Assembly: GCA_015233395.1 (NCBI GenBank) | Contig: JADFXV010000001.1 | Span: 1 to 64,000, forward strand | Origin: Desulfovibrionaceae bacterium | GTDB lineage: Bacteria; Desulfobacterota; Desulfovibrionia; Desulfovibrionales; Desulfovibrionaceae | Reading direction: 5' to 3' | Length of the DNA: 64,000 bases | Shown here: positions 19,076-22,325 of the stretch, in pieces | Numbering within the stretch: the first letter of the stretch is position 1 | How the letters are laid out: every line of letters begins with the position of its first letter | Notes under the pieces: generated by a model | Told to the model about the DNA's origin: nothing | Database searches by the model: none | The model's input: the letters and a program-made list of their open reading frames with translations, nothing else | Position numbers and translations under genes: made by a program

Positions 19076-19250
19076 CGTGGAGGCAGCCGTGGCCATGTCA
19101 CTGCAAATACCGCGCCGAGTAAACGCCACGCCCGTGCGGCCCGGGAACAAGGCGGTCCGGGCAAAGAATTCTTGAGGCAATGTATTTGCCATGGAGCGAA
19201 GCGACATGTATGGAATGGTCAATGTCCATCCCTGCAACCGGAGAAAGGTC

Positions 19251-19955
19251 ATGAAGCTCCATATTGCATTCGCTTGCCTGTCGCCACTGCTGCTCATGTC
19301 CGTCCTGGCCGCGCCCGTCCGCGCCCAGCCCGCGGCGGCGAGCCCCGGCCTGGTCCTGAACATCCGCAACGGCAATCTTGAACGGCGCTCCCAAGAATCC
19401 TGGGAGACGCTGGTCGTGGGCGATCCCGTCACCGTCAAGCAACGCCTGAAAACCGGCCCGGCCGCCTTGGCCGTGCTTGAGCTGCCGCAACTGGGCCGCT
19501 ACATCCTGGGGCCGGACACCGATGTGGAACTCGGCCAAGGCGGACAAAACGCCACCGACAGTCTGAAAAAGGGCGCCCTGTGGATCTCGGCCAAGCTTCC
19601 GCCCGGCAACAGCCTGACCGTGCAGACCGCCCTGGCCTCCTCCGGCGTGCGCGGCACGATGTTCACGGTCATTGCCGGCAAAGACGGCATGGATTTATGC
19701 ACCTGCAACGGCAACGTCGATGTAACCCTGAAAGACGGCACGGTGGTGAAAGTGGGCACCGGCTCATCCTGCAAGCTCGACGTCCGGGGCAAGCCCATGG
19801 GGCCGGTCACCAAGGGCGCGCTCGTGCTGGCGAAATACTCCGCATCTTCCAAGGCGTACGGCATCTGTTACGGTTGCCACACCAAAACGGGGCTGAGAAA
19901 AGACTGGAACGAAAACACGTTGTCGCTCGCGGCGAGTTCCGCCAAGGACAAATAG
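19251..19955 (+). CDS. Exported FecR-domain protein with a CxxCH motif
   Basis: About 234 residues from the ATG at 19251 (GGAGAAAGG upstream; the frame is open to 19191). Signal peptide MKLHIAFACLSPLLLMSV, cleavage near VRAQ. The FecR core is visible: VLNIRNGNLERRSQESWETL, GDPVTVKQRLKTGP, LGRYILGPDTDVELG, LKKGALWISAKL, VQTALASSGVRGTMFTV and GNVDVTLKDGT. Two extra features are the cysteine pair LCTCNG in the core and ICYGCHTKTG near residue 205, an exact CxxCH (codons 19866-19880), as in c-type haem attachment sites. The CHASE2-cyclase gene begins 24 bases later, so the pair probably forms an envelope-sensing module. Haem attachment is possible but unproven; a single CxxCH could also bind metal or form a disulfide. 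Confidence 0.75.
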   Translation: MKLHIAFACLSPLLLMSVLAAPVRAQPAAASPGLVLNIRNGNLERRSQESWETLVVGDPVTVKQRLKTGPAALAVLELPQLGRYILGPDTDVELGQGGQNATDSLKKGALWISAKLPPGNSLTVQTALASSGVRGTMFTVIAGKDGMDLCTCNGNVDVTLKDGTVVKVGTGSSCKLDVRGKPMGPVTKGALVLAKYSASSKAYGICYGCHTKTGLRKDWNENTLSLAASSAKDK

Positions 19956-19979
19956 CCCGCGCCGGACGACCCGCATATC

Positions 19980-22325
19980 GTGAGCGCGATTTTCAAAGCC
20001 GTTTTCGACCGGGCCGGCCACCTGCTCTGGCCGGCCGGCCTGGGGCTTTGTCTTGCCGCGTTGTGTCTGCTTGATCCGGGCGGACAGATCGGCTCCCTGG
20101 AACTTAAGACCCAAGACGCCCGGGCGCGGGCGTACGCCGCGCCCACGACCCATTCCGGAGAGATCGTCCTGCTCGACATCTCCGAGCAGTCGCTGCGCCG
20201 CTTGGAACCGGTGTTCGGCCGATGGCCCTGGCCGCGCTCGGCCCACGGCGAGGTCGTCGAATATCTTGCCCGAGACGGCGCCAAGGCCGTGGCCTTCGAC
20301 ATCATTTTCTCGGAGCGCAACCGCGCCGTCCAACTCGACGAAGCCGCTCTGCGCGATCTGACCGTCTTTGCCGGCAACGCCGACATACCCGAGGTGCGAG
20401 ACGAATTGCTCACCCGGTTGGCCGCGTTGAAACCCTCGGGCGGAGACGATTTTTTGGCGCAAAAGACGGCTGCGGCCGGAAACGTCGTCAGCCCGGTAGT
20501 CTTTTACGTCGATGACGGCGAAGCGCGCGTTTCACCCGGCATGGCCGCGCAGGGATCGGACCTGGTCGCCGCTCTTCAGGCGCTTGCGGGCTCGGGCGCG
20601 CCTTCGCCGGCATCCGGCCCGGCCTTCCCCCGCTTCCACACCGCCATCACGCCATTTGCGGAGTTGGCCAAGGCCTCAAAAAGCCTCGGGCACATCAATT
20701 TCCTACCGGACGCCGACGGCTTGTGCCGCCGCTTCAGACCCCTGGTCCGTTTCGACGGGTCGCGCGCTCTGTATCCCTCTTTGTCCTTGGCCGTGGCCGC
20801 CACGGCGCTCGGGATCGCCCCCTCCGGCATCGCCGTCGCCGCGGATCATATTCAAATCGGCGATCGCGCCCTGCCGCTTGCGGCCGACGGGACGGCTTTC
20901 ATCAAGTTCCAGGGCGGTCCCGGGGCGGTCGCGCCCGGAAAAAACGAGGCGACGCCCACCTATGCCTACGAATCGTACGAGGCGGTCTTATCCAGCGCCC
21001 ATCAGGCCGCCCGAGGGCTGGAAACGGCGACGCCCAAGGGCCGGTTCAAGGACAAGATCGTCATTGTCGGCACGACCGCAGTGGGCCTCAAGGACGTGCG
21101 TTCGACCCCGTTTAGCCCGGTCAGCCCGAGTTTTGAAATCCACGCCAATATCATCGACGCGATTTTGACCGGCGACACCCCGCGCGGCCTGCCCATGGTC
21201 TGGGTTGTGTTTCTGGTCCCGGTCCTGTGTCTGGCCGCCGCTTTGCTGGTCAGCGTCGCCAAAGCCGCCGTCGGCGTCCCGGCAAGCCTGGCTTTGGCCG
21301 TCGGCGCGCCAGCGGCGGCCTGGATGCTTTACGGCCAGGGGATAGTGGCTCCCATGGCCGGGCCGGGGTTGGCCGTGCTTGCTTCAGCCATCGCCGGCGG
21401 GGCGCACAAATATTACCGGCAATCCCGGGAAAAGGCCCGGATCAAGTCGGCCTTCGGCCAATACCTCGCCCCGGCGGTCATGGAGGAAATTCTGAAACAT
21501 CCGGAAAATCTGCGCCTGGGCGGCGCCAAACGCGTCCTGACGGTGCTTTTTTCCGACATCAAGGGCTTCACCACGTTTGCGGAAAATCTGCCGGCCGAAG
21601 AAGTGGCCTCGATGCTCAACACATATTTTACCCGTATGGCCGCTTGTGTCACCCAAACCGGCGGCATCGTGGACAAATTCATCGGCGACGCCCTGATGGC
21701 CGAATGGAACGCCCCGGGGCTGGCCCCGGACCACGCCGCCAGAGCTTGCCGGGCCGCCTTGCTCATGCGCGACGGGCTTATTGCCCTCAACCGGAATTGG
21801 CGAGCTCTGGGCAAGCCGGAACTGACCATGCGCATCGGGATCAACACCGGCGAGATGATCGTGGGCAACATGGGCGCCGAAAACATATTCGACTATTCGG
21901 TCATCGGCGACGAGGTGAACACCGGCTCGCGCATTGAAGCCCTGGGAAAGCTCTTCGGGGTCCAAGTCCTGACCGCCGAGGCGACTGCGGCCGCGGCCCG
22001 GCTGCACGCCCCGGACGATTTCGTCTTTCGCCGTCTGGGCCGGGTGCGCATCAAGGGCCGGGCCAAGGAGCTCTCCGTCTTCGAGCTGGCCGGATCGCCC
22101 CCGGAGCTTGGGGAGCAAACCATCAGCGGCCTGCGGGCCTATGAAGACGCCCTCGGCCTGTATGAAGCCGGACGCATGAAGGAGGCCATCGCGGCGTTCG
22201 AGGGCGTAGCGCGGTTGATCCCCGGCGACGGACCGGCGGCCCTGCTGACGCGCTTATGCCGTGAGCGCCAGGCCGAAGCCGAAACGGATAATTTCACCGG
22301 AATCATTGAGCAAAAAGAAAAATAG
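19980..22325 (+). CDS. CHASE2-domain class III adenylate/guanylate cyclase
   Basis: A 781-residue membrane protein. TM1 (about 14-31) is followed by a periplasmic CHASE2 domain (about 35-375: VLLDISEQSLRRLEP, WPWPRSAHGEVVEYL, VAFDIIFSER, KDKIVIVGTTAVGLKD), several TM segments (about 400-470), a class III cyclase domain (about 515-695), and a C-terminal TPR-like helical tail (YEDALGLYEAGRMKEAIAAFE). The cyclase has the metal Asp residues in LFSDIKGFT and KFIGDALM, the Lys of VDKFIGD, and NIFDYSVIGDEVNTGSR. It starts with GTG. FecR-domain and CHASE2-cyclase genes are frequent neighbours in bacteria, so the upstream FecR protein is the likely periplasmic partner. cAMP is the likely product; the base specificity is not proven. 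Confidence 0.9.
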   Translation: MSAIFKAVFDRAGHLLWPAGLGLCLAALCLLDPGGQIGSLELKTQDARARAYAAPTTHSGEIVLLDISEQSLRRLEPVFGRWPWPRSAHGEVVEYLARDGAKAVAFDIIFSERNRAVQLDEAALRDLTVFAGNADIPEVRDELLTRLAALKPSGGDDFLAQKTAAAGNVVSPVVFYVDDGEARVSPGMAAQGSDLVAALQALAGSGAPSPASGPAFPRFHTAITPFAELAKASKSLGHINFLPDADGLCRRFRPLVRFDGSRALYPSLSLAVAATALGIAPSGIAVAADHIQIGDRALPLAADGTAFIKFQGGPGAVAPGKNEATPTYAYESYEAVLSSAHQAARGLETATPKGRFKDKIVIVGTTAVGLKDVRSTPFSPVSPSFEIHANIIDAILTGDTPRGLPMVWVVFLVPVLCLAAALLVSVAKAAVGVPASLALAVGAPAAAWMLYGQGIVAPMAGPGLAVLASAIAGGAHKYYRQSREKARIKSAFGQYLAPAVMEEILKHPENLRLGGAKRVLTVLFSDIKGFTTFAENLPAEEVASMLNTYFTRMAACVTQTGGIVDKFIGDALMAEWNAPGLAPDHAARACRAALLMRDGLIALNRNWRALGKPELTMRIGINTGEMIVGNMGAENIFDYSVIGDEVNTGSRIEALGKLFGVQVLTAEATAAAARLHAPDDFVFRRLGRVRIKGRAKELSVFELAGSPPELGEQTISGLRAYEDALGLYEAGRMKEAIAAFEGVARLIPGDGPAALLTRLCRERQAEAETDNFTGIIEQKEK

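Follow-up and report, generated by a model that had tools for sequence, protein, structure and literature searches.

A FecR-domain protein and a CHASE2 cyclase are encoded as a gene pair

Two adjacent genes on the forward strand of the window, the whole 64-kb stretch of DNA analysed here, encode a FecR-domain protein and a CHASE2 cyclase. They are neighboured by a FliJ gene and a periplasmic binding protein gene. The first gene (19251..19955) runs from an ATG at 19251 to a TAG ending at 19955 and encodes 234 amino acids with a CxxCH motif in the C-terminal tail. A good ribosome-binding site (GGAGAAAGG) precedes this ATG, and initiation there gives a hydrophobic, signal-peptide-like N-terminus by hydropathy; an alternative in-frame start at 19191 would give a longer product and has neither the ribosome-site nor the signal-peptide support of 19251. 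The predicted signal peptide spans residues 1–25 (19251..19325), with a hydrophobic window score of 2.35 from residue 5 and a cleavage site placed by eye between VRA and Q, and export of the protein is predicted from hydropathy. Residues 65–156 (19443..19718) form a FecR domain (Pfam PF04773, 34.6 bits against a curated cut-off of 24), which assigns the protein to this family and is its sole Pfam match at E values up to 1.

The second gene (19980..22325) starts with a GTG at 19980, leaving 24 bp after the FecR stop codon, and encodes a 781-residue protein. A CHASE2 extracytoplasmic domain (residues 27–413, 20058..21218; 179.6 bits, E = 1.1e-52) is followed by a membrane-spanning region, with hydrophobic segments within residues 400–473 (21177..21398) by hydropathy, and a Guanylate_cyc catalytic domain (residues 520–698, 21537..22073; 87.6 bits, E = 1e-24). 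The catalytic residues D526, K566, D570, D638, N647 and R651 are intact; we take them to be the two metal-binding aspartates, the adenine-specifying Lys/Asp pair and the transition-state Asn/Arg pair. Together with the Pfam domains, they identify the protein as a CHASE2 class III nucleotidyl cyclase. The Lys/Asp specificity pair is that expected of an adenylate cyclase, which makes cAMP the probable product. The base composition of the gene pair is ordinary, and a scan of the locus for promoters and terminators returned nothing above chance. The genome also encodes a second CHASE2 cyclase (G000:C67, L082:4289-6676), 33% identical to the first; no FecR gene was detected in the stretch examined around it, which lies near a contig end.

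Orthologues of the FecR protein are few and scattered

The FecR protein of the window is the only FecR-domain match in its own genome. Searches with it found no orthologue in 79 relatives, where the best matches were near E = 4e-4, nor on plasmids; in a set of 348 genomes of its class, no protein other than the window's own passed. A search of 85,000 species genomes with the protein's own peptides likewise yielded no orthologue. A phylum-wide sample of 395 genomes contained two clear orthologues, in G483 (E = 3.3e-38) and G335 (E = 2.6e-34), the next matches being near 1e-6. A third (L147, from the same genome as G700) was recovered when the 85,000 species genomes were scanned with a three-row alignment, by way of two peptide patterns that were taken from the FecR core and did not include CxxCH. 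A fourth came from G704 (E = 4.8e-86), which belongs to the class of G483.

These four orthologues (L142:5530-6213, L143:5869-6585, L147:119-790 and L181:6530-7213) all come from other classes of the same phylum, and at least two of their genomes are named as groundwater MAGs. They share 30–35% identity with the window protein and 44–58% among themselves, and three of them score 30.2–41 bits against Pfam FecR. With the window protein, the FecR family with a CxxCH tail has five known members, and the sampled genomes contain the FecR–CHASE2 pair bearing this motif only rarely and sporadically. That the pair stands alone among the 348 genomes of the class may reflect horizontal transfer or loss.

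The CTC and CxxCH motifs are invariant across the family

Two cysteine motifs reported in the preliminary description of this DNA are exact: CTC at residues 150–152 (19698..19706) and CYGCH, a c-type haem attachment motif, at residues 206–210 (19866..19880). Open frames of 80 amino acids or more in the window contain no other CxxCH, and shuffling the FecR protein's own residues produced a CxxCH in 0.11% of trials. That description had also held that absence of CxxCH from close homologues would speak against its reading, and the motif proved to be present in four of four other orthologues. Counting the window protein, the variants are CYGCH, CFNCH, CFTCH, CFNCH and CFNCH, embedded in a tail element CxxCH...L..DW (19866..19907) with the family consensus CFNCHxxGGxGxLxxDW. 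Both CTC and the C-terminal CxxCH are thus kept in all five proteins at 30–58% identity. This conservation is not biased by the search, because the orthologues were found through whole-protein or FecR-core matches and not through CxxCH.

The five-sequence alignment has 40 invariant columns among 215 ungapped ones. In its last 36 alignable columns, the only invariant residues are the two cysteines and the histidine of CxxCH (C206, C209 and H210 in the window protein) and one leucine. If invariant columns were spread evenly and shared ancestry is ignored, all three CxxCH residues of the tail would be invariant by chance with a probability of about 6e-4, and the cysteines and histidine of CTC and CxxCH together with one of about 2e-4 under the same assumption. 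A third cysteine (CxCTC) is present in the four other orthologues; the window protein lacks this first Cys.

Other FecR proteins served as controls. None of about 50 FecR homologues from many loci has a C-terminal CxxCH. Around 60 CHASE2 loci of the window's family, a home-made FecR profile, which may miss diverged members, detected an open frame for FecR, no more than a few kb away, in eight cases, none with CxxCH. An apparent CxxCH at L037 was rejected, as it sits upstream of the protein's likely start. Some FecR matches contained an in-frame TAG; in the one case opened (L061), this codon simply terminates a short FecR gene. At that locus, on the reverse strand in another genus of the family, the short FecR gene is followed by an OmpA-like gene and then a CHASE2-like protein, an order that was read by eye from the translation and differs from the pair in the window.

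Two distant FecR proteins, L135:1264-2037 (YLCTCYG) and L151:6001-6633 (YLCVCEG), carry YLC[TV]CxGxV at the CTC position without any CxxCH. Because CxC occurs there without CxxCH, CTC may be a separate, older trait, and this CxC-only class of FecR proteins may bind something on its own.

The paired cyclases form their own clade

In all five genomes, the gene immediately downstream of FecR encodes a CHASE2 cyclase, the two genes overlap slightly or lie no more than about two dozen bases apart, and the surrounding genes differ. A tree of 65 CHASE2 cyclases places the five FecR-paired enzymes in one clade (SH-aLRT 100) against 60 others, a comparison set drawn from the window's family only and including the second copy of the genome. 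The branch of the window cyclase is long (0.96), which makes its exact placement less sure. Two histidines of the window cyclase, H89 (20244-20246) and H238 (20691-20693), are invariant in the five paired enzymes and absent from the 60 others. They are possible contact or ligand residues, in a clade that has many specific residues. The constant pairing, in gene order and co-occurrence, suggests that the FecR protein may contact and regulate the cyclase.

Could the FecR tail carry haem?

Attachment of c-type haem calls for an exported protein with a conserved CxxCH, and this is what the FecR family offers, export being read from hydropathy only. The cell also appears equipped for the task. A search for CcmF and Cytochrom_C_asm proteins, the only cytochrome c maturation genes sought, found that the genome encodes CcmF (CcmF_C, E = 7.3e-43) and, a few kb from it, another Cytochrom_C_asm protein, with a third elsewhere, so that haem could be attached to the FecR protein. 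The invariant CxxCH, the predicted export and the maturation genes together suggest that the tail carries a haem.

Against a haem-carrying tail, no cytochrome c family in Pfam matches the FecR protein or its orthologues, and the tails alone gave a single match, at E = 0.11, to a CXXCH family. A profile of the five members had nine sub-threshold matches in the PDB; four of the nine were c-type cytochromes, with a best E value of 0.18, which is weak support for haem. AlphaFold models of the FecR protein (four or five sequences) were poor, reaching mean pLDDT values of 58.5 and 55.8 and showing the tail as disordered, so that no haem pocket, second ligand or CTC–CxxCH distance can be named. Foldseek searches with the model returned nothing at E ≤ 0.001, the top two weak matches being a cell-surface anchoring domain and a PupR signalling domain.

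A proposed haem-dependent switch and its alternatives

We propose that the two genes form a unit in which a secreted FecR protein bearing one c-type haem acts on the CHASE2 cyclase and tunes cAMP, a reading to which we give a probability of roughly 60%. The FecR-type protein would be secreted and would bear a single c-type haem on its short C-terminal CxxCH tail. A redox change, or a small ligand such as NO, would alter at this haem the contact between FecR and the large CHASE2 domain, and the changed contact would change the rate of cytoplasmic cAMP synthesis.

The main rival to haem is a metal or thiol site. Here CxCTC and CxxCH together would form a site for zinc, an iron–sulphur cluster or copper, or a thiol–disulphide switch, and the protein would sense metal or thiol redox state without haem. 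CTC is as invariant as CxxCH, a third cysteine accompanies it in four of the five proteins, and CxC alone stands at the same place in the FecR proteins L135 and L151; these observations suit such a site. The histidine after CxxC is nevertheless invariant, and a disulphide switch needs none. The CxxCH of an exported protein is, moreover, normally loaded with haem where the cell has Ccm. Since CxC exists without CxxCH, the two motifs do not have to belong to a single site, and in the window protein the first Cys of CxCTC is missing. On balance, we regard this alternative as unlikely, though it deserves to be taken seriously.

It is also conceivable, if improbable, that FecR is a small haem-bearing electron carrier and that the cyclase is merely co-transcribed, in which case cAMP would not be regulated by haem. 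In its favour, the link between FecR and the cyclase is one of gene order and co-occurrence, and stand-alone Cache-haem domains look redox-related, unlike gas sensors (PMC12889525). However, the pair keeps its gene order in five genomes whose neighbouring genes differ, its cyclases fall into a separate clade, and FecR–CHASE2 linkage recurs elsewhere (PMC9239204, PMC5192318). A further idea, that an ordinary FecR–CHASE2 pair has its CxxCH by chance, is very hard to credit: single cases do arise, as in the roughly 0.1% of shuffles with an exact CxxCH, but its retention in five of five orthologues, down to 30% identity, already contradicts this explanation.

To return to the haem-bearing FecR unit, the preliminary description had suggested that the exported protein could carry haem, which would make the pair a redox- or gas-sensing cAMP system. 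What stands of that reading is the conserved CxxCH, the separate clade of the cyclases and the presence of maturation genes; that the signal is redox or NO is conjecture, drawn from the analogy with sCache_heme.

Relation to known systems

Pairs of FecR proteins and CHASE2 receptors are known. In Campylobacterota, FecR proteins are clustered with CHASE2 adenylate cyclases (PMC9239204), and in Burkholderia, FecR/LysM proteins are in an operon with CHASE2 histidine kinases (PMC5192318). Both systems resemble the window in that the gene for a CHASE2 receptor lies next to one for an exported protein with a FecR domain. The Campylobacterota clusters add a phosphodiesterase and a TPR protein (PMC9239204) and the Burkholderia operon adds a response regulator and DUF4136 (PMC5192318), whereas the window has two genes only. 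The accessible text makes no mention of CxxCH for either system (PMC9239204, PMC5192318), in contrast to the FecR protein of the window, and that of the Burkholderia paper calls the CHASE2 signal unknown (PMC5192318). In the open-licence literature, we found no paper joining FecR, CHASE2 and CxxCH, and a literature search gave no known ligand for FecR proteins beside CHASE2 receptors. The pairing itself is therefore known, and the CxxCH-bearing version is apparently undescribed.

The classical FecR anti-sigma regulator (FecI-FecR-FecA) shares the FecR domain with the window protein and differs in its partners, a sigma factor and a TonB receptor instead of a cyclase. The window protein shows no sign of an anti-sigma or transmembrane domain, only the N-terminal signal-type stretch, and no ECF sigma factor gene is among its neighbours.

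In mechanism, the nearest parallel is the family of Cache sensors that carry c-type haem. Proteins of the sCache_heme type (DUF3365; Tll0287) bind haem c through a CxxCH segment of cytochrome origin that sits in an extracytoplasmic Cache domain, and the signalling member that was examined binds NO (PMC12889525). As in the window, an extracytoplasmic sensor scaffold that is not itself a cytochrome bears an added CxxCH fragment, with links in part to cyclic nucleotide enzymes (PMC12889525). The window protein is no member of that family, having no DUF3365 or Cache domain in Pfam to E = 1: its fold is FecR with the motif in the C-terminal tail, whereas sCache_heme has a Cache fold with the motif inserted, and, unlike in sCache_heme, sensor and cyclase are separate proteins.

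We tentatively put forward, at somewhat less than even odds, an undescribed class of cAMP sensors in which a separate, exported FecR protein with a c-type haem on its tail would control a CHASE2 adenylate cyclase from the outer side of the membrane by redox state or NO binding, which would be the first chemically defined CHASE2 signal. The conserved haem-attachment motif in the FecR partner offers a concrete and cheaply testable candidate cofactor for CHASE2 signalling. If the proposal is true, an extracytoplasmic sensor would for a second time, independently of sCache_heme and on another fold, have acquired a CxxCH piece resembling that of cytochromes.
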